This document shows, in pieces, positions 2,295 to 12,320 of a stretch of DNA of 37,654 nt. The stretch spans positions 1-37,654 of the IMG/VR virus record IMGVR_UViG_3300006086_000015; one strand, written 5' to 3'. Position 1 is the stretch's first letter, and the number at the start of each line of letters is the position of its first letter. The position numbers and the translations under genes were made by a program. The stretch comes from a virus. The notes under the pieces are model-generated. The model saw only the letters and a program-made list of their open reading frames with translations. It ran no database searches and was not told the DNA's origin.

Positions 2295-2599
2295 TAATGC
2301 CCCTTAGGAGGTTGCTTAACCTCAGTGATAAAAAATGGTCGTAGCCACTGCACATAAACCCCAAACAGTTTGAATTGCATTACAACAAAGCGCCCTTGAT
2401 TAGTATTCACAACGGTTGTTTCACGGGCCAAAATACGCTTACAACTGGGTGTGTTTTTAAGTTGCACAACAGCGGCTGAATCTGTAATAGAAATGGCTTG
2501 CACCTGATGGTGTTCGCGCTCCAACTCTTTTATGCAGCGGTGAACGGCGTCCGCACGCTGCAATAAAATAGAAGGCGCTTTTTCAGCAGCAGCTTCCAT
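2294..2599 (-). CDS. Hypothetical early protein, 101 aa
   Basis: The start codon overlaps the stop of the MuB-like gene (TAATG), so translation is probably coupled to it. The N-terminal half is a charged helix (KAPSILLQRADAVHRCIKELEREHHQ). The C-terminal half looks beta-rich (RFVVMQFKLFGVYVQWLRPFF). I do not recognise the family. Its position directly after the transposition ATPase is shared by uncharacterised small genes in B3-type phages, but nothing in the sequence points to a specific role. Confidence 0.7.
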   Translation of the reverse strand: MEAAAEKAPSILLQRADAVHRCIKELEREHHQVQAISITDSAAVVQLKNTPSCKRILARETTVVNTNQGRFVVMQFKLFGVYVQWLRPFFITEVKQPPKGH

Positions 2600-3777
2600 T
2601 AAGCGACCTCATCAATAACAGCGGCGTCAATCACCGGCACACCAATGCTTGCAGCAATATTCATCGCTGCAAGCATGAAATTACCCACGGCGAGTGGATA
2701 AAGCTGGCTTTCTTTAGATTTGGAAATAAGGCGTTTTGTAATTTGCGTGATGCCGCTTTGATCAATCACTTCATTCAGATTTTTGCCCACACGTTTGAAG
2801 CGGTATGCCAGAAACTCTTCGAGCAGCTGTGGGGCCATTGGGCGCAAATGCGCAACTTCACAGCGTTGTACAACCTCGCGCACTTCTGCATTGCGTTCGC
2901 TTAACTTGATCATCAACTCAGGCTGGCCGATGAGGATTACGCTCACCAATTTCGTGAAGCCAATTTGTAATTCGAGAATGCGTTTTAAATGCTTGAGCGA
3001 TGTGATGGGCATTGAATGCGCTTCTTCAATGACAAGGCAATGGCTATAGCCAGCTTGGTGCGAACTGATCAATGCGTTATGTAATTGCTTGAAACGTGCC
3101 TCTGGTGAAATACGCACTGGAGAGTTGGGCGCAAGGTTACGCAATATGGATTCCGCAACGTGCGCGCTTTTGAGCATCGTGCCTTTATGATCGGTTTCCT
3201 CTGCGGCAAGCACATAAGGTTTGATTACAATGATTGGCAGCTTGTCGCTGTGTATACGCTGCTCCAAATCAGTGAGCACCGTGGTTTTACCGCTGCCACT
3301 TTCACCAACCACCGCAAGAAAACCACCGTGCTTAGCAGTGGTAAGCATGCACTCTCGCACGTAACGAATGTCGGGGCTAACCCACATATCCTCAACACTT
3401 GCCAAATCATCAAACGGATTGCGAACGAGTGAAAAATGGCGCTTTGCTTCGGGGGTTAATGATTGTCTACGTAGCAGCATATGGTCGTCCTCCTCGGACT
3501 TTGTTTTATTGGAAGTGGGTGTTATCGGTTGCGGTACTGACTGCAAACGCACTACAGCTTTGGTTTCAACTACATCAAATACAGATTCATTGGCTGCATC
3601 GTAAGGTTGTAAAAATTCCAATATTTTTTGGCGCAACTGCGTAGCAAGATTGGCTGATTTTGGCCATAAGTTGTGATTTAATAATTGCGCGATAGCGGCG
3701 TTACTAACATCACAATAAATGGCGAGTTTGGTCTGCAAAATACCTAATTCGTTTAAGGTTTCTTTTAACGCAAGCAT
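2599..3777 (-). CDS. MuB-like transposition ATPase (AAA family)
   Basis: This 392-residue protein delivers target DNA to the transposase in Mu-type transposition. Residues 1-55 resemble the MuB N-terminal HTH domain (LAIYCDVSNAAIAQLLN). A linker follows, then an AAA core with Walker A GESGSGKT (158-165, K164) and Walker B LVIEEAH (248-254). The stretch VILIGQPEL (about 285) fits a sensor 1-like region. The ATG has GGAG seven bases upstream. It lies immediately downstream of the transposase gene, the same order as A-B in Mu. It should bind DNA with ATP and stimulate strand transfer; that is family knowledge. Confidence 0.93.
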   Translation of the reverse strand: MLALKETLNELGILQTKLAIYCDVSNAAIAQLLNHNLWPKSANLATQLRQKILEFLQPYDAANESVFDVVETKAVVRLQSVPQPITPTSNKTKSEEDDHMLLRRQSLTPEAKRHFSLVRNPFDDLASVEDMWVSPDIRYVRECMLTTAKHGGFLAVVGESGSGKTTVLTDLEQRIHSDKLPIIVIKPYVLAAEETDHKGTMLKSAHVAESILRNLAPNSPVRISPEARFKQLHNALISSHQAGYSHCLVIEEAHSMPITSLKHLKRILELQIGFTKLVSVILIGQPELMIKLSERNAEVREVVQRCEVAHLRPMAPQLLEEFLAYRFKRVGKNLNEVIDQSGITQITKRLISKSKESQLYPLAVGNFMLAAMNIAASIGVPVIDAAVIDEVA

Positions 3778-3832: not shown

Positions 3833-5599
3833 CTATTTAATTAAACGCAGCGGTGTAACATTCACCTGCTGCAGTTGTTGAGCAATCGCGCTCAATTCTT
3901 CTTCTGGCACACCATTGGGATAACGCTGGCTCAGCCAAGCAAAATGTTCAGAACCGTTCCAAAAACCGTCAGGATGCGCAGCCAAGCGTCTTGCAGCTGC
4001 AGCTATGGTTAAGGGCTTATATTCAACGGTAGGCGCAACTACATCGCTTGCAGTGCCACGCTTGGGCAAGTAATCCACCAGCTGTGTGTCGGTAACATTT
4101 TTCATAGGATCTATGCGGCCACCGAATGGCACTTTTTTGCCTTTACGATTTTGCTTTGCTTCTTCATCGGTGGATGCATCCATCACCAAGCGCTCAACCG
4201 CTTTGCGGTTTTTATCAACAGCAGAATCTGCATGGCGCTTGTATTCCTCACCAAAAATGGGTGCATTAATGGGGAACCCAAATTCGTCTTTCTTGATGGG
4301 TTCGATAACGTGGATGACTTTTTTGCCTTCATCGTCAGCGGTAATAATTTGAACGCTGCCATCGTTGCGCCATGGGTTCATGGTTACTAATACGGTCTCT
4401 TTAACTTCAACACTAGGCACAGACTTCACGTCGTATTCTTGGCCTTTAAAGTCAATAGTTAATTGGGTTGATACCACTCGCGTTTGAGGTGCCGAATAAC
4501 TCAGTTCGCGCATCACGTTTGCGGGAGGTGCAATAATTAATTGGGATTCAGTGATGCGCGCCCACACTGCATAGCGAGGTTGCTTTGTGCGAGAATGGTT
4601 TTGTGTTGCGTTGAACCAACGCATCCACGCCCACGCACTCTCATTCAACTCATCAATGCTGGTGGGTGGGTTTTGCATGTACTTAATGCGGTGTTCAAAT
4701 TCGCATTCAACAATATCGTTCGTCTTTTCAACGGTGCCTTTTGCCCAAGGTTGGCCGGGCTGATTTACTTGCAATTCAATGTTTAATGCTTCACATAAAT
4801 TCTTGAAAACAGCGCCAGTGTTCGCGCTACCTGGGTCAACAACAACCATGCGTGGAATGCCATGCATAGGGTCTTTGGGGTGGCGCTTTTGTGTTGCGGG
4901 AATAAAGCTATCAACCAAGTTTTTGCCGGTCTCTGCACCGGGTACGTAGTGCAAATAAAATGCTGAGCTGGTGTGATCGCTAATCACGTAGCGCCACACG
5001 CGCTCTTTTTCAACGCGAATAATGTTTTCAGGTTTGTTTTTGTAGAATTCTTTTTCACTCATCACCTGCAGTGCTTCACCTTTTTTGTGAGGAAGGTAAT
5101 ACAACACACACAGTGATGGGTCGATTTGCCACACATGGTTCGGGTGCAAACTCGCCATGGTCATTTTTGCAGTGGGTCTGCAAAGTTGTTCTGGATGCAA
5201 ACGGAATGTGTATAAGGCGCGGCTCACTGCACCGTCACTTAACAAACGAACTTCGCCGGTGCTCTTGTCAACATGTTCAGCGCGCACAGCGCCATTTGCG
5301 CGTAAGATTTCCAATGCGGATTTAACACTCGCCAAACGCTTTTCATTTTTGCGCGAACTTTCAACCATGTACGCGCTAATAATTTTTGCTTCTTCAAAGC
5401 TCAAACTTGTTGAGCCAGAATCGCTGCGGCGTTTGCGTTGTTTCACAATGACAACCTCTTTCAATTTACGGTGCAGTGTCGCAAGCGACATTCCCATATC
5501 GTCAGCCGCTTTCTGATAAACGGCGTTCTTTTGCCCGTGGCCCGCTGCATCGGCAGCGCGAGCAACGGACTGTAGAGCCTCTATCAGTGCTGGATTCAT
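3833..5599 (-). CDS. MuA-like DDE transposase
   Basis: A 588-residue transposase that cuts and joins the phage ends. An N-terminal HTH-like part (about 25-50, QKAADDMGMSLATLHRKL) is followed by an integrase core. The catalytic residues visible are D160 (WQIDPS), D255 (VVVDPGSAN) and E291 (KGTVEKTND), with 35 residues between the second D and E. A C-terminal beta-barrel-like region (about 390-450) follows. I choose the ATG at 5599 because it overlaps the upstream stop (TAATG). A GTG at 5614 would add five residues. The likely binding sites are the GATAAAT repeats at both prophage ends. Confidence 0.95.
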   Translation of the reverse strand: MNPALIEALQSVARAADAAGHGQKNAVYQKAADDMGMSLATLHRKLKEVVIVKQRKRRSDSGSTSLSFEEAKIISAYMVESSRKNEKRLASVKSALEILRANGAVRAEHVDKSTGEVRLLSDGAVSRALYTFRLHPEQLCRPTAKMTMASLHPNHVWQIDPSLCVLYYLPHKKGEALQVMSEKEFYKNKPENIIRVEKERVWRYVISDHTSSAFYLHYVPGAETGKNLVDSFIPATQKRHPKDPMHGIPRMVVVDPGSANTGAVFKNLCEALNIELQVNQPGQPWAKGTVEKTNDIVECEFEHRIKYMQNPPTSIDELNESAWAWMRWFNATQNHSRTKQPRYAVWARITESQLIIAPPANVMRELSYSAPQTRVVSTQLTIDFKGQEYDVKSVPSVEVKETVLVTMNPWRNDGSVQIITADDEGKKVIHVIEPIKKDEFGFPINAPIFGEEYKRHADSAVDKNRKAVERLVMDASTDEEAKQNRKGKKVPFGGRIDPMKNVTDTQLVDYLPKRGTASDVVAPTVEYKPLTIAAAARRLAAHPDGFWNGSEHFAWLSQRYPNGVPEEELSAIAQQLQQVNVTPLRLIK

Positions 5600-6501
5600 T
5601 ACTGGTTTTCCCACTCCATGCCTTGCGTGCCGAATTCGGTTTGCAAGAATTGAACTGCGTCATGAAGTAATTGAATTTGCGAATCGATAAAGGCTTGGTG
5701 GTCATCACCGCTGTGCTTTCTTAAAAGCTCAAGGGCATTTGAGAAATTAGTGCGCAGTTCTTCGTCAATACCGATTTGCAATGAAGCAACCTCAGCGCAA
5801 AGTTGTTTGGCCTTTTCGTCTTTCGGTAGCTTCTTGATCAGCACGGCCTTTTCTTGCAGTTGGGCGATGCGTTTTTGGTTATCAGCTGCAACTGCATCTT
5901 TGGCTTCAAGGTCGGCTTTTGCTTCATCAAGTTGCTTGGTGACGGTTTCTTTTTCTTTTGCACTTTTAACAATGATTTGCTCAATGAACTCGGCAAGGTC
6001 ATCTTTGTTTTTGGTGGCAACTGCTTGCTGGATTAATGCCTGAGAATCGTCAGGCAAGTTGCGGATAGCGCGCATGGTGCTTGGGCCAAGGCCAACTGTA
6101 CGCATAGATTCAAACAGCTCTGGGCCAAGCGAATTAAGGTTCTTTAAGTCGAGGTCTACCGATTCGCGTGAACGCCCTTCAATTGCGGTGCAGTACTCTT
6201 CCCAAGTGGTAATGATTACAACTTTTCCATCAATTTCAGTCGTAAAATTTTTATAACCCTTTGATTCTTTTAGGTTTTGCAAATCAACCAAATCGGCAAC
6301 CGTTACCAGTTTTTGAACCATGGATGCCATTTGGCGGCGACCAATACGTTGATTAATCACAGCTGAGGCTTTTTCATGTTCTCCCTGTGCGGCTTGAATA
6401 ATTGCTGCGCCAGTTTGTTGCGAGCGATTGATTGCTTCCGCTGTTTCAGCTGGTATTGCTGGCGCAACTTCAATCTCTTTTTTTGTTGGTGTGCGAGACA
6501 T
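5599..6501 (-). CDS. Hypothetical early protein with coiled coil, 300 aa
   Basis: The gene lies directly upstream of the transposase gene and is coupled to it by TAATG. AGAGGAA precedes its ATG. The N-terminal third is Ala- and Gln-rich. The middle part includes TWEEYCTAIEGRSRESVDLDL (about 100-120), followed by a short HTH-like stretch (GLGPSTMRAIRNLPDD). Residues about 180-250 are a charged coiled coil (KEKETVTKQLDEAKADLEAK). Similar proteins occur at this place in B3-type phages without a known function. A DNA-binding or replication-accessory role is possible but unproven. Confidence 0.78.
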   Translation of the reverse strand: MSRTPTKKEIEVAPAIPAETAEAINRSQQTGAAIIQAAQGEHEKASAVINQRIGRRQMASMVQKLVTVADLVDLQNLKESKGYKNFTTEIDGKVVIITTWEEYCTAIEGRSRESVDLDLKNLNSLGPELFESMRTVGLGPSTMRAIRNLPDDSQALIQQAVATKNKDDLAEFIEQIIVKSAKEKETVTKQLDEAKADLEAKDAVAADNQKRIAQLQEKAVLIKKLPKDEKAKQLCAEVASLQIGIDEELRTNFSNALELLRKHSGDDHQAFIDSQIQLLHDAVQFLQTEFGTQGMEWENQ

Positions 6502-8305: not shown

Positions 8306-8512
8306 TTAAGCGGCTAGAGGTTCAGACGATTTAATGCCCAGCGCTACAGCTATTTCGTGCGCTTTGCCGTAGTTAGCTTTATCAAAGCCGTTCAAGACGC
8401 GGTACACCGCATTTCGGGTATAACCGTGTTCTTCAGCCCATTGGGTAACAGTAATACCGGCAGCGCGAAAGCGTTGTTTGACCTGGGTAGGGGTCAGTAA
8501 CCGAGTGGCCAT
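8306..8512 (-). CDS. Ner/Cro-like HTH protein, first gene of early operon
   Basis: A 68-residue protein that is one HTH domain: VKQRFRAAGITVTQWAEEHG (about 11-30), followed by YTRNAVYRVLNGFDKANYGKA. AAGGAG stands eight bases before the ATG. It is divergent from the repressor and is the first gene under the operator-covered promoter at 8573-8601. In Mu the corresponding gene, ner, turns down early and repressor transcription. That role is inferred here from position and size. Confidence 0.82.
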   Translation of the reverse strand: MATRLLTPTQVKQRFRAAGITVTQWAEEHGYTRNAVYRVLNGFDKANYGKAHEIAVALGIKSSEPLAA

Positions 8513-8561: not shown

Positions 8562-8590
8562 TTGTTGAGGTGATTATGGGACATTAATGT
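8562..8590 (+). promoter_or_regulatory. Predicted repressor promoter
   Basis: TTGTTG (8562-8567) and TAATGT (8585-8590), separated by 17 bases, form a plausible sigma-70 promoter pointing at the repressor gene. The operator palindrome covers its -10 region, which would allow autoregulation. The match to consensus is moderate and no transcript data are available. Confidence 0.45.
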
Positions 8591-8601
8591 CCCATTAGCA
8601 A
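8573..8601 (-). promoter_or_regulatory. Predicted early promoter of the leftward operon
   Basis: On the minus strand, TTGCTA (8601-8596) and CATAAT (8578-8573) are separated by exactly 17 bases. The spacer is almost entirely the 20-bp palindrome, so a bound repressor would block RNA polymerase. Transcription would start near 8566 and reach the first ATG at 8512 after about 55 bases. Confidence 0.6.
8576..8595. promoter_or_regulatory. Perfect 20-bp palindromic operator
   Basis: ATGGGACATTAATGTCCCAT is a perfect inverted repeat in the 98-bp gap between the divergent Ner-like and repressor genes. It overlaps the spacer of the leftward early promoter and the -10 of the proposed repressor promoter. 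A dimeric XRE-type repressor encoded 16 bp away is the natural ligand. Binding is inferred. Confidence 0.75.
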
Positions 8602-8610
8602 GGGGTGTCT

Positions 8611-9057
8611 ATGTCTCACTTTTCGATGGGTAGCAGAATTAGGGCTGTCCGAGGGGAGCTTGGTGTTAGCGAGTTTGCTGACAAGCTTGAAATAAACCGT
8701 AAAACCGTGACTCGTTGGGAGGCCGATGAAGGCATCCCTGACGGCGACTCATTGATTTTGTTGTACCAAGGTTTTGGTGCAGATCCGCTTTGGATATTGC
8801 TAGGAGAAGGTTCAGCACCTGAAATAAATTCAGCTGAGCAGGTGTTGCTTTCTAACTATCGAATCTGTTCCATAGAAGCCAAAAAAAATTTATTACAGAC
8901 AAGCTCTTTGTTGGCTGCTGGTGTCGAAGTTAGTAAACCCGTAGTAAATACGGGAAACAAAGTAGTTCAAAACTTCAATAAAGTTGGGCAAAGCTATACA
9001 GGTGATTTAGTTATCGGCAGCCCATTAGATAGTGATTTTTTTAAAGACGACAAATAG
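8611..9057 (+). CDS. XRE-type prophage repressor
   Basis: The 148-residue protein has an N-terminal HTH (about 8-65): SRIRAVRGELGVSEFADKLE, then INRKTVTRWEADEGIPDGDS, ending in WILLGEG. There is no S24 peptidase domain, so RecA-stimulated self-cleavage is unlikely. The C-terminal tail (about 115-136, VVQNFNKVGQSYTGDLVIG) resembles a motif in the next two proteins. I start at the ATG at 8611 (AAGGGG five bases upstream); a GTG at 8605 lies within that site. It is transcribed away from the early operon and probably acts on the palindrome at 8576-8595. Confidence 0.85.
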   Translation: MSHFSMGSRIRAVRGELGVSEFADKLEINRKTVTRWEADEGIPDGDSLILLYQGFGADPLWILLGEGSAPEINSAEQVLLSNYRICSIEAKKNLLQTSSLLAAGVEVSKPVVNTGNKVVQNFNKVGQSYTGDLVIGSPLDSDFFKDDK

Positions 9058-9075
9058 TGGTTTATGGAGCGGTAG

Positions 9076-9678
9076 ATGGTCGATGAAAGAAAAAACAACG
9101 ATGAATCAAAAGTAATTCATCAACATTTTTACGAGAAGGTGAATGTGGTTGCCGGTGGAGACATTAAAGGTATAGATCTGCAATTAGTTGAAACCAAGAA
9201 CACCCCACTGGGTTCTAAAAAAAATTATTCAAATGTGGATGAAGAAAAAAATTACTTCAAAAAATCAAAAATGAGAGGCACTACTGCACCATCGAGAATT
9301 GGGCTTGAGTTGTTGCTTGAGGAAAACATAAGCACAGAAACTGTAGCAAGAGCTTGGAATAAAGGGTTTCTTTGGTTTAACGACAGCCACCAATTTGAGG
9401 TTGATCTTAATCCAAATCATCCAAGGATAGGAATGGCAAGTGTGTTTTTGGCCGCGCTTTTTGGCATAGCACCCTCAATCCTGTGGGAAATTATCGCGCC
9501 AGCCGGTTATCATCTAACACCACATCAGAGAGATGTGCTTCTTATAATAAATGCGATTACATTCAGCATGTCTATATTTTTTGCATGGCGTGGTATGCGC
9601 AGGCTTGTACCATTTCTGGCAGCTAAGCGAGCGGCTATTTTTATTCCAAAGATTAATGAGATGCTTAGGAATAAGTAG
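9076..9678 (+). CDS. Two-TM membrane protein with VAGGDI motif, cargo gene
   Basis: A 200-residue protein starting 18 bases after the repressor stop, with GGAG before the ATG. Residues 16-30 (QHFYEKVNVVAGGDI) carry a motif shared with the next gene and loosely with the repressor tail. A polar linker follows, then transmembrane segments at about 118-140 and 152-171 and a basic C-terminus (MRRLVPFLAAKRAAIF). The gene is AT-rich compared with the structural genes. It may form an operon with the repressor and be expressed in the lysogen. Superinfection exclusion or another membrane-acting conversion function is possible; I recognise no family. Confidence 0.7.
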   Translation: MVDERKNNDESKVIHQHFYEKVNVVAGGDIKGIDLQLVETKNTPLGSKKNYSNVDEEKNYFKKSKMRGTTAPSRIGLELLLEENISTETVARAWNKGFLWFNDSHQFEVDLNPNHPRIGMASVFLAALFGIAPSILWEIIAPAGYHLTPHQRDVLLIINAITFSMSIFFAWRGMRRLVPFLAAKRAAIFIPKINEMLRNK

Positions 9679-9753
9679 GTAGGAAGCGGGCAAATGAAAG
9701 GCACCTTGGTAGAAATTACGATTTTTCAAATAATCATTTAGTAGGAGCTTGTT

Positions 9754-10206
9754 TTGGACGATAGATTAGATGGCGATGGTCAAGATACAGATAATACTAA
9801 CGAATATACGCAAAATTTTCATGGAAATGTTGGTCAAGTCGCTGGCGGCAACATAAACATAACTAATCACATATATGAAAAGGGAGTGGATCATAATGCC
9901 CTTACTGACGCGCAGCTTCGTCAGAGGAAGGCGGAATTTAAAAGGCGTTTATTTAAAGTGAGGAAATTGTTTTTGTTCTCTTGGCCTGTTTTGGCGCTGC
10001 CAATTTATATGGTTTTAACGATCTGTTTCGTTTTTAGTGGATTGCTATTTTCTGTACCAGCTTATCTTTTCTTGGCGTGGGCATTGGGGATGATAGTAAT
10101 TGCTGGGTTTATTGTCGAAAAGCGAAAACAGTATGGCCCACTGATATTTTACTATAAAAATGAAGTTGCACGCATCGATTACCATTTAACGCATAGAAGT
10201 ATTTAA
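9754..10206 (+). CDS. Two-TM membrane protein with VAGGNI motif, cargo gene
   Basis: A 150-residue protein starting at TTG, chosen because AGGAG lies six bases upstream; no ATG fits. Its N-terminus is acidic (DDRLDGDGQDTDNTNEY), followed by QNFHGNVGQVAGGNINI (residues 20-36). A charged helix (about 50-70) and two hydrophobic segments (about 72-98 and 100-121) come next. The plan matches the upstream gene: motif first, then linker and membrane hairpin. The two may be diverged paralogues or partners. Function unknown; a membrane effector in lysogenic conversion is a hypothesis. Confidence 0.7.
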   Translation: MDDRLDGDGQDTDNTNEYTQNFHGNVGQVAGGNINITNHIYEKGVDHNALTDAQLRQRKAEFKRRLFKVRKLFLFSWPVLALPIYMVLTICFVFSGLLFSVPAYLFLAWALGMIVIAGFIVEKRKQYGPLIFYYKNEVARIDYHLTHRSI

Positions 10207-10240: not shown

Positions 10241-10738
10241 ATGATCAAGAGAATTTTTCTATTGCTTTCTATTCCAGTTGTTACGCTGCCTACATATGCA
10301 AGTGATATTAAACCAGTACCTGATCAATGGGATGTTGCAGTTATTAAGGATGAATTTACAGATCAGCAACAAACATTTGCGTTTGTCGCCTCGACTGAAG
10401 GAAAAGAGAAAGGCGTAATAGTGGTAGCTTGCTTTGCAAGAGGGCAAATAGAAACCAAAATCAGTACAGGTGCTTATATTGGTAGCAAAGATATCCCAAA
10501 TAATATGCTCTACCGTGTAGATGATGACCCTGCTGTTACATCTACTATGACTCCATCCAAGAGGGTGGTTTTTTCTGATAAGTACAGTGAGCAATTTTTA
10601 CAAGACATAAAGCAAAACTACAAAGATCACGTAAATGTTCAATTAACCGATTTTGAGTTTAATACGACCAAAGCGAAGTTCACATTAAAAAATGCAAGTG
10701 AGTCTATCAAAAAGGTAGTAGATGCCTGCGGTATGTAA
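10241..10738 (+). CDS. Exported hypothetical protein, 165 aa
   Basis: The N-terminus MIKRIFLLLSIPVVTLPTYA is a clear Sec signal peptide with likely cleavage after the A at residue 20, so the mature protein is periplasmic. The rest has KGVIVVACFARGQIETKIS and ends with VDACGM, leaving two cysteines (in VACF and DACG) that could pair. GGAG lies five bases before the ATG. A terminator follows directly at 10754. This looks like a self-contained phage cargo gene (moron) expressed from the lysogen. No family recognised. Confidence 0.72.
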   Translation: MIKRIFLLLSIPVVTLPTYASDIKPVPDQWDVAVIKDEFTDQQQTFAFVASTEGKEKGVIVVACFARGQIETKISTGAYIGSKDIPNNMLYRVDDDPAVTSTMTPSKRVVFSDKYSEQFLQDIKQNYKDHVNVQLTDFEFNTTKAKFTLKNASESIKKVVDACGM

Positions 10739-10801: not shown

Positions 10802-11668
10802 ATGACTGATCCGATCGTTACAAAATTTTGTGTGGTTTATGATGGCCCAGCCCACGTTGATCATGAAATAAATATTATGACGCTTGGCGCATCACTTACC
10901 TCACTAGGCAATGTGATAAAAGAGGCGAATGAACTTATAAACGGATCTGACATGTTAGAAGTTCGCGTAAACGCGGATTTTATCGAAGGGTCATTTGGTT
11001 TTGTTGTTGAGCTAATTCAAAACTATCAAGATGCGAAAGATGTATTGGATTACCTTGGCTTTACTGCCGTACATTTAATTGAAGGGGCGGCAGCTACGGG
11101 GTCAGTGATAGGGGCACTTCAGTGGCTACGTGGCCGCGATATTATTGCAATCGAAGATAATGCCCAAGACGACAACTTAGTAACTTTAAGCGTTGATGGT
11201 GAAGAAATATCAGCTCCGAGAGACATTGCAGAATTAGTTGCTAAACCTGCATTCAGGAAATCGGTCGAAGGGCTTATTGCCAAGCCATTGGAGAGTCCTG
11301 GAACGACATCGTTTTCAATATTGAAAACCCCAAAATCTAATACTCCAATGTTGAAAATTGAGAAGCCTGAAATTAGTTCCTTTCGGGAGCTAAAGGTATT
11401 GCCAACTGAGGATGAAAAAACAACTGAAGAAAAGATAAAATTCACTGCCGCTAATATTAAAGGGAAGCGTGGGTGGAAGGCAGAGATAAATGGTAAAGAA
11501 CAAACCCTCAAAATGCATGATGACGCATTTATTGAGCGGCTCTCAAATCGAACAGAAGCGTATCTATTTGGCAAAACTTTTACTGTAGCTCTAAAAACAA
11601 CAACAACAACTCGCTTGTCGAAAGCATCTAAGGTCTATACTGTAACAAAGGTTTACCACGAGTCTTAG
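10802..11668 (+). CDS. Uncharacterised cargo protein, first gene of three-gene cassette
   Basis: A 288-residue soluble protein. Its N-terminal part, FCVVYDGPAHVDHEINIMTL then ASLTSLGNVIKEANELIN, resembles a widespread uncharacterised family I recall with a [FV]xVxYDGPAL...HxMDV...EAN pattern. A short hydrophobic stretch (LIEGAAATGSVIGALQWL, about 90-107) precedes a variable linker. The C-terminal domain (about 215-288) looks beta-rich (KRGWKAEINGKEQTLKMHDD, LFGKTFTVALKTTTTTRLS). GGAG precedes the ATG. It opens an apparent operon with two membrane proteins. Defence or exclusion is plausible from context only. Confidence 0.7.
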   Translation: MTDPIVTKFCVVYDGPAHVDHEINIMTLGASLTSLGNVIKEANELINGSDMLEVRVNADFIEGSFGFVVELIQNYQDAKDVLDYLGFTAVHLIEGAAATGSVIGALQWLRGRDIIAIEDNAQDDNLVTLSVDGEEISAPRDIAELVAKPAFRKSVEGLIAKPLESPGTTSFSILKTPKSNTPMLKIEKPEISSFRELKVLPTEDEKTTEEKIKFTAANIKGKRGWKAEINGKEQTLKMHDDAFIERLSNRTEAYLFGKTFTVALKTTTTTRLSKASKVYTVTKVYHES

Positions 11669-11687: not shown

Positions 11688-11927
11688 ATGCTTTCAACGT
11701 TTTTTTTGGTGGCTGTATATATAGGTTGCTTCGTAGTAGTAGCCTATATATTTTCCATCATTGCCAGAAAGACATTAATACTCTTATTTGGAGAAAATAT
11801 TAATGTTACGTACATAGATATCAATGGAAATACTCAGAAGCGAAGAATTCGTGCAAATAACGATGAGGACTTAATTGACGTATTACGTGAATTAAAATCT
11901 AACGCGCGTAGAAAAAAGGCCATGTAA
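11688..11927 (+). CDS. Small single-TM membrane protein, 79 aa
   Basis: The gene starts 19 bases after the previous stop with GAGG upstream. Residues about 2-30 are a hydrophobic helix (STFFLVAVYIGCFVVVAYIF). A short cytoplasmic part follows (INVTYIDINGNTQKRRIRA, then NDEDLIDVLRELKSNARRKK). The ATG of the next gene follows its stop directly. Likely co-expressed with the flanking genes as a membrane component of the cassette. Family not recognised. Confidence 0.65.
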   Translation: MLSTFFLVAVYIGCFVVVAYIFSIIARKTLILLFGENINVTYIDINGNTQKRRIRANNDEDLIDVLRELKSNARRKKAM

Positions 11928-12320
11928 ATGGAAGAAACTACGTCAACCAGAGCTAAAAAGCTTAAGGCTACTGTAACTACGTCAGCTGGCGTAGGTACGA
12001 TCGGAGCCTTACTTTTAGGAGTTATCGCCAAATATGCTGATGCCAATACAAAAGAGATCCTTACTCTAGCAGTTCCTTTTGTCAGCGTTTGGATTTTAGC
12101 TATAGGTACATGGTTAGTGGCCGTAGGGAAATGGCTAGGTATCGCTTATGGGTTTGACGAGCCTACCGTTGTAAAGCTTCGAAGACAAACAAAAAAATAC
12201 AGGAAGAAGCTGTTAAAAGAGCTGAACGGCAAATCAACATCTGAAGAAAACAAGGCTAAAATTAGAGCTCGCTTAGATGAATTACAAATGGTTGAACTTG
12301 AATCCTATGAGATCAAATAA
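11928..12320 (+). CDS. Two-TM membrane protein, 130 aa, last gene of cassette
   Basis: The ATG directly follows the upstream stop codon. Hydrophobic segments lie at about 17-36 (TTSAGVGTIGALLLGVIAKY) and 44-67 (ILTLAVPFVSVWILAIGTWL...). A long charged helix follows (RRQTKKYRKKLLKELNGKST, SEENKAKIRARLDELQMVEL). The pattern, a membrane hairpin with a cytoplasmic coiled coil, suits a partner of the 79-aa membrane protein and the 288-aa soluble protein. Function unknown. Confidence 0.65.
   Translation: MEETTSTRAKKLKATVTTSAGVGTIGALLLGVIAKYADANTKEILTLAVPFVSVWILAIGTWLVAVGKWLGIAYGFDEPTVVKLRRQTKKYRKKLLKELNGKSTSEENKAKIRARLDELQMVELESYEIK

Follow-up and report, generated by a model that had tools for sequence, protein, structure and literature searches.

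This study describes a module in which the C-terminal tail of a phage lysogeny repressor carries a putative docking segment that recurs at the N-terminus of the protein encoded directly behind it. The module came to light in a viral DNA of 37,654 nucleotides (IMG/VR record IMGVR_UViG_3300006086_000015, positions 1 to 37,654; this whole stretch is called the window), in which an XRE/CI-type lysogeny repressor (8605-9057, plus strand; PF01381, E 2.3e-6; ATG 8611 is an alternative start) is followed by two genes on the same strand, partner A (9076-9678) and partner B (9754-10206, TTG start). As judged from protein sequences, a comparison with related loci showed that the repressor tail is an exchangeable C-terminal docking module (an F motif, an N motif or a helical H module) behind the DNA-binding domain. 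At least one same-strand gene directly downstream carries the matching N-terminal module and then a swappable body, which is a two-transmembrane (two-TM) hairpin, a zinc ribbon with TM segments, or a Flk/antirepressor-C-like domain with a C-terminal TM segment. The matching tags suggest that repressor and membrane protein are physically coupled, and the whole is fairly probably a repressor-coupled membrane-partner module that is Rex-like in position.

Matching motifs on repressor tails and downstream partners

The original prediction had placed one shared motif in the repressor and in the 9076 and 9754 proteins, and all three segments were found: QNFNKVGQSYTGD in the repressor tail (residues 122-134; 8968-9006, plus strand) and QHFYEKVNVVAGGDI in partner A (residues 16-30; 9121-9165, plus strand), both divergent F-type motifs, and the F-type QNFHGNVGQVAGGNI in partner B (residues 20-34; 9811-9855, plus strand). 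The two-TM hairpin that was said to follow the motif and a linker was recovered in partner A by hydropathy, and in partner B (about residues 71-121, with limits set by eye; 9964-10116, plus strand) by hydrophobicity and by the helices of an AlphaFold2 (AF2) model. In 2000 uncorrected shuffles, the repressor tail resembled partner B with p 0.02, B ranking first of the 134 open reading frames (ORFs) of the window; the motifs of A and B resembled each other with p 0.006, and the tail resembled A at chance level (p 0.46). Partner B scored 21.3 bits with a hidden Markov model (HMM) built from F-type tails of relatives, and the window tail and partner A fell below the threshold of such models. Judged from the window only, the motif resemblance is marginal.

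Related loci were therefore collected by transposase alignment, so that selection on the motif was avoided: the best 80 of 231 loci confirmed in bacterial genomes and the best 80 of 581 in viral contigs. To these were added ten annotated phages picked among 58 transposase matches (the motif of one, Ps59, was already known at picking), phage H72, which was found through its repressor, and the window, for a total of 172 loci. L001, L003, L004 and L005 had been removed beforehand; L001 had been considered as a relative of a window protein and gave only a short match, to a 161-aa ORF without the motif, and the DicA-type repressor of L004, examined by eye, lacks the tail motif. A repressor was detected in 154 of the 172 loci, and the other 18 were dropped.

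Two motif types recur in these loci, QxFxGxVGQVAxGDI (F-type) and VxGxGNRVAGRDF (N-type). In phage B3, for example, the repressor ends with ISVTGDGNRTAGRDFHERKE and the next gene begins with MNIEVTGSNNIVAGRDFIEN; in the Pseudomonas prophage L026 the repressor tail is QTFHGPVGQAVEGGVTN and the next gene has MSQEFRGHVGQVAAGDIQN. Tailless relatives such as H72 have no motif-bearing partner. After removal of six loci without a partner ORF, 96 of 148 loci were kept as nonredundant, and in these the tail scored 33.3 against its own partner versus 24.35 against permuted partners (standard deviation 0.77; 10,000 permutations; z 11.6). Tail and partner also covaried more finely inside each motif type (F, n 18, p < 5e-5; N, n 19, p 0.005). 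Some unusual tail subtypes were picked by eye for their similarity, which biases their p value, and that value was not used.

HMMs built only from 25 repressor tails (12 F-type and 13 N-type) were searched in the 23,072 ORFs of the 172 loci at 10 bits or more. They matched 61 repressors, a number that includes the 25 seeds by construction, and a further 70 ORFs. Of the latter, 66 lie on the same strand within 3 kb downstream of the repressor; three of the other four are a partner gene with an over-long ORF start. For the presence test and the class table, six loci with less than 1 kb of downstream sequence were left out (two of the 96 nonredundant ones). In the remaining 94 nonredundant loci, presence of the tail was linked to presence of the downstream motif ([[52,5],[6,31]]; Fisher p 8e-14). 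Among 148 loci, tail and partner were both F in 30, both N in 20 and both H in 18; an N tail stood with a partner bearing N plus H modules in two; neither module was present in 60, only a tail in eight and only a partner module in ten. There was no F/N/H mismatch.

Of six nonredundant loci with only a tail by the F/N models, L085 and L100 have a partner with a diverged motif, L061 and L159 have a short apparent remnant, and no partner was found in L014 and L111. All five nonredundant loci with only a partner, including the window, have diverged tails visible by eye. In L177, as in L061 and L159, the tailed repressor is intact and the partner is apparently a short or disrupted remnant. In L266 (4129-4985), two tandem repressor-like genes, each with an N-type tail, precede one N-type partner.

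A FastTree phylogeny of 146 MuA-type transposases served as the control (eight of the 154 loci had no transposase sequence). On this tree, the tail class changed at least 38 times and the partner module at least 39 times. In 20 supported independent contrasts of tail presence, the partner followed in 12.4, opposed in 0.2 and was unchanged in 7.3 (averages; median p 0.0005), and the contrasts of F with N and of H with F/N agreed in 6/6 each (p 0.03 each). The comparison thus showed that the tail and partner modules, as recognised by these profiles, have been gained, lost and switched together. A second sample was obtained by scanning viral contigs with two partner families. Its 89 loci, ten of which share a contig with the first sample, were chosen by their partner motif, which leaves the repressor as the informative side: the upstream XRE repressor had a tail of the same type in 83 and of a different type in none, four tails were below threshold yet visibly F-like, and in two loci one member of the pair was cut by the contig end or had no ORF.

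The comparative loci thus settled what the window shuffles show weakly, and the predicted association of the motif with neighbouring genes across genomes held in the tail-only HMM search, the second sample and the contrasts. A chance resemblance, or a common oligomerisation segment without partner specificity, would agree with the marginal figures of the window and its tail-to-A comparison; it is contradicted by the permutation result, the absence of class mismatches, the phylogenetic contrasts and the 83 of 89 loci, and is very improbable. The motif had also been expected to be conserved along with the rest of its homologues. Measured as the mean fraction of the major residue, motif and body scored 0.81 vs 0.52 in the partner family FAM1 (18 sequences), 0.80 vs 0.48 in FAM2 (6 sequences) and 0.57 vs 0.52 in FAM0 (22 sequences of mixed motif types). 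The motif is the more conserved part in FAM1 and FAM2, the two hardly differ in FAM0, and the prediction was not refuted.

Spread and exchange of the modules

The P2-like phages KS5 and Carl1, found with motif peptides, carry matched F-type pairs, and in the P2-like Escherichia phage 520873 an N-tailed repressor is accompanied by an N-type motif ahead of an apparently disrupted partner, which indicates that the module crosses phage families. In the part of the KS5 genome paper that covers these genes, gp11 is a repressor and gp12 only a membrane protein (PMC3091744). An intact E. coli pair was found in 515 of 5426 complete genomes (~9%), annotated, among the matches listed, as a helix-turn-helix (HTH) protein and a membrane protein. 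WP_000786769 and WP_000290355 are a matched E. coli pair. FAM1 matches were found in at least eight of 249 Pseudomonas genomes (17 candidates scored per genome). For six of the eight, the repressor ahead has an F-type tail (recognised by HMM in two and by eye, in the variant HTFxxVGQYIHGSVNQ, in four), and in the other two a body without F/N motif stands behind an H-class repressor. Among plasmids, with one motif peptide as query, a single Burkholderia replicon was found.

The 86 partners (73 found by HMM and 13 added by eye) fell into 14 body groups by single linkage, and the ORF start of 67 of them lies between -60 and +60 nt from the repressor stop (median 4 nt). FAM0, the commonest body (55/86), is a Flk/antirepressor-C-like domain with a C-terminal TM segment and occurs with both F and N motif types. 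FAM1 (11/86) has two-TM bodies and includes partner B, FAM2 combines a zinc ribbon with two TM segments, and FAM3 holds the B3/Ps59 partners (ORF20 in B3). The host loci L275 and L272 encode proteins (open frames of 420 and 337 aa) that match the FAM0 body and are probably Flk itself.

The third class, H, has a helical repressor tail in 20 loci and its own distinct partner N-terminal module. The H models recovered 20/20 H loci at 12 bits and 18/20 at 20 bits by construction, since they were built from these loci, so only the rarity of the module elsewhere is informative: outside H loci, it was found in two N-class partners (L015 and L162) and one spurious ORF. The partners of L015 (4328-4924; Ps59) and L162 combine an N motif with a module like that of the H class, which looks like a stacking of docking modules.

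Bodies and repressor cores have been exchanged across classes. The L128 (H) and L051 (F) bodies share 61% identity, and those of L054 (H) and L162 share 86%; the L162 repressor is N-tailed, and its partner has an N motif and an H-like stretch. Conversely, repressor cores that are 68-70% identical carry tails of different classes (L159 F vs L039 H; L125 H vs L056 N). These swaps are the strongest argument that the tail and the N-terminal module act as lock and key.

Further variants were seen at the same position. In L081 (6976-7851) and L034 (6977-7366), the repressor ends in another kind of Gly/Val-rich tail, and a DUF4236 protein lacking the F/N motif comes next; the L081 tail, IRIDGTVHGHVVQGDVVQHGPV, is presumably BASS3-like, BASS denoting bacterial amyloid signalling. 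Such tails and their DUF4236 neighbours possibly form a further docking class. In an enterobacterial relative, L077 (6979-7983), a gene for a nucleoid-associated NA37 protein lies immediately behind the repressor. One of 31 aligned partners weakly matched the NCBIfam entry "anti-phage protein ProA" (E 0.0016).

The window phage

The DNA of the window belongs to a transposable, B3/JD18-like phage, with a MuA-type transposase (3833-5614, minus strand), an AAA protein (2599-3777, minus strand), a gp16-family HTH protein and the XRE/CI repressor. The gp16-family gene belongs to the phage early region and is divergent from the repressor gene (8306-8512, minus strand; phrog_925, E 1.1e-30). A perfect palindrome of 20 bp (8576-8595) lies directly ahead of the repressor gene and is probably its operator. 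The repressor is 52.5% identical to that of phage H72 over residues 7-104. Between the repressor module and the lysis genes lie 10241-10738 (phrog_1848), 10802-11668 (phrog_3243) and the ORFs 11688-11927 and 11928-12320.

In its best segment, the transposase is 68% identical to that of the nearest viral contig and 60-63% identical to those of prophages in Gilvimarinus, Marinimicrobium and a metagenome-assembled genome of Cellvibrionaceae, so a marine gammaproteobacterial host is likely. The viral contigs yielded no usable close relatives of the three window proteins. Partner A has no relatives in Pfam, PHROGs, the viral contigs or the 86 grouped partners, and nothing in phage records matched partner B. 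Both partners have membrane segments but no match in Pfam, PHROGs or PADLOC.

Function of the partners and comparison with known systems

In the mechanism proposed here, the repressor tail and its partner would likely bind each other. For the F and N types, the binding is likely to be homotypic and probably of beta type, made by a segment without fixed structure in the monomer. With less certainty, the partners may serve lysogeny as Rex-like effectors in the inner membrane, with the repressor setting their activity. Recruitment, displacement or loss of the repressor, as in superinfection or induction, would change the contact and let the partner act on the membrane, and the outcome would be exclusion or abortive infection, or an altered commitment to lysis.

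The effector role is suggested by two features. The median distance between repressor stop and partner start is 4 nt, so the partner is expected on the lysogenic transcript; moreover, the slot behind the repressor holds known or candidate anti-phage genes in some relatives, namely PD-T4-2 (L049, E 9e-156), PDC-S31 downstream of two partners (L082) and, downstream of the partner in L048, two genes for GmrSD-type proteins. Transposable phages may use this slot to carry defence cargo. As described in passages of one source, rexAB share the cI transcript, and RexA and RexB contact CI in two-hybrid assays and affect both exclusion and the lambda switch (PMC11077077); for a Pseudomonas putida prophage RexAB, passages of another state that RexB damages membranes and that the RexA relative was recognised only by profile-profile search (PMC12894663). 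The partner genes of this study likewise lie on the same strand directly behind the repressor gene. No RexA-like protein was recognised between repressor and partner, where a remote relative could escape the searches used.

Several observations weigh against this interpretation. The FAM0 body resembles the host protein Flk (10/31 partners, best E 2e-15, NCBIfam NF007987) and not known toxins, and FAM0 bodies match the antirepressor C-domains phrog_245 (Ant) and phrog_2127, and ORF6C weakly. Hydrophobic segments occur in 70/86 partners but also in 59/75 first downstream ORFs of loci free of motif partners, a control that rules out membrane segments as a hallmark of the partners. None of ten partners compared with PADLOC was matched convincingly (best E 0.013 and 0.053). 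The defence-gene scan of the slot covered ten proteins chosen by eye, and the loci of three of them held such genes. The chance-level comparison of the window tail with partner A and the built-in recovery of the H loci also belong here. The phage FAM0 partner may have been derived from the flagellar regulator Flk or may interfere with it.

The antirepressor-like bodies suit another possibility, in which the repressor is tethered or remodelled by its membrane partner, so that induction is tuned to the state of the membrane or envelope. The tail is presumably dispensable for repression, given the H72-type relatives without it, and the contact of RexA and RexB with CI in lambda reportedly shifts the switch, according to passages of the source cited above (PMC11077077). 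Such a regulatory role fits less well with the 60 of 148 loci that have neither tail class nor partner module and with the defence genes near the slot, and it is possible but not favoured. A comparable, modest chance is given to a toxin-antitoxin or guard arrangement, in which the repressor tail silences a toxic membrane partner that is freed by loss or inactivation of the repressor. Here the HTH gene comes first and the partner second, with gene ends that often overlap or nearly touch; tails persist beside the short apparent partner remnants of L061 and L159, and the partner-only loci all show diverged tails by eye. The likeness of the commonest body to Flk and antirepressor C-domains and the lack of a convincing PADLOC match argue against it. 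A Rex-like effector coupled to the repressor appears most likely, the guard or toxin-antitoxin and switch-tuning variants follow closely, and these are not mutually exclusive.

The original prediction had also compared the arrangement with amyloid-type signalling motifs of bacterial immune receptors. Bacterial amyloid signalling pairs of NLR and Bell proteins were reportedly described by Dyrka et al. in 2020. In the AF2 model of partner B, residues 1-40 have a mean pLDDT (the confidence score of the model) of 50-60 and the motif is unstructured, followed by helices at 52-74, 77-95 and 103-149; in that of an E. coli-type FAM0 partner, residues 1-15 have a pLDDT below 50 and strands of low confidence lie at 17-23 and 32-38. 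The bodies in both models are confident helices with membrane segments. The disordered motif fits a segment that folds on binding, in these models alike for an amyloid and a finite complex. Foldseek searches of PDB with the FAM0 model (best E 0.73, SaPI Stl/Sak complex) and of viral models with the partner B model (best E 0.27) gave no significant match, nor did a search of PDB sequences with the partner profile (best E 0.06).

Amyloid signalling proper would be a more specific form of the coupling proposed above, following BASS/HET-S/RHIM logic with a repressor in place of the NLR: for the F and N classes, an operator-bound repressor would cluster its tails, seed cross-beta polymerisation and open a membrane pore. 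The motif lies at the C-terminal end of one protein and the N-terminal end of the next, similarity within pairs exceeds that between pairs, several partners per locus can bear one motif type, and the Gly/Asn-rich motif is predicted to be unstructured in both models. The RHIM core consensus, which we take to be [VI]Q[VILC]GxxNx[MLIV], was found in 0/154 tails and 0/86 partners; no amyloid-motif model, RHIM included, is among the listed 25 of 32 Pfam families matched by 28 repressors; and a proline occupies a variable position in 8/25 distinct F-type tails. The H class achieves equal coupling with a helical tail, which indicates that the common principle is coupling and not amyloid, and, with both proteins expected to be made in lysogens, some block on spontaneous seeding would be required. 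Amyloid-type assembly of the F and N classes is thus plausible as a way of contact, is not needed for repressor-partner coupling, and as a full signalling mechanism is rather unlikely. What stands of the predicted likeness is the adjacent, type-matched motif at facing ends; the RHIM and Pfam negatives, the prolines and the H class weigh against a strict amyloid.

A broader claim is held still more tentatively: that exchangeable docking codes, at least two of them signalling-amyloid-like, wire the repressor, as the receptor of a phage-encoded immune or death pathway, to membrane effectors. If true, bacterial amyloid-type signalling would not be confined to NLRs and would be common in ordinary unicellular Proteobacteria, as in the ~9% of complete E. 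coli genomes with an intact pair. A review asks, in one passage, whether bacterial signalling amyloids exist outside NLR pathways (PMC7889193), and the repressor-partner module is a concrete, widespread candidate. No description of such a pair was found among the titles and abstract openings listed from the Creative Commons-licensed part of PubMed Central, so that one may exist elsewhere. Proteins annotated as "hypothetical" or "membrane", so far orphans behind the repressors of many Mu-like and P2-like prophages, become one testable system, the C-terminal tail of the phage repressor gains a function tied to the neighbouring gene, and natural matched and swapped pairs are at hand for tests of specificity. 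If the partners exclude phages, homology-based catalogues may have missed a lysogeny-linked class of defence.

Type II toxin-antitoxin pairs consist of an HTH antitoxin with a partner-specific C-terminal tail and an adjoining partner gene. The module shares the DNA-binding protein with such a tail and the partner gene next to it; it differs in that a phage repressor and membrane partners are involved and the contact segments are alike in both proteins. Flk and the antirepressor C-domains resemble the FAM0 body, which bears an extra N-terminal docking motif, whereas the window partners lie outside FAM0 and gave no antirepressor C-domain match in Pfam or PHROGs. With Rex, the module shares a membrane-protein gene behind the repressor on the expected lysogenic transcript, and the lambda Rex proteins contact CI in two-hybrid assays; here, the docking module sits on the repressor itself and exclusion is a candidate activity.

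According to passages of PMC7889193 and PMC9815663, bacterial amyloid signalling pairs were recognised by a motif that recurs in adjacent genes, and the NLR-Bell pairs are treated in parts of PMC7889193, PMC8086366 and PMC9815663. The present loci are like them in having a short motif repeated at facing ends of the products of adjacent genes, several sequence families of it, a membrane-associated effector side, and a similarity within pairs above that between pairs, as found by permutation, covariation, the class table and the contrasts. In the BASS pairs, the motif is on the N-terminus of the NLR and the C-terminus of Bell; here, it is on the C-terminus of the repressor and the N-terminus of the effector. 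The receptor is a phage XRE repressor and not an NLR (NACHT, NB-ARC and TIR had no Pfam match in ten partners), the effectors are two-TM or tail-anchored, one class is helical, and the evidence comes from sequences. In sum, the module is not an NLR-Bell pair; by its predicted proteins and gene order, it is BASS-like in architecture and Rex-like in position.

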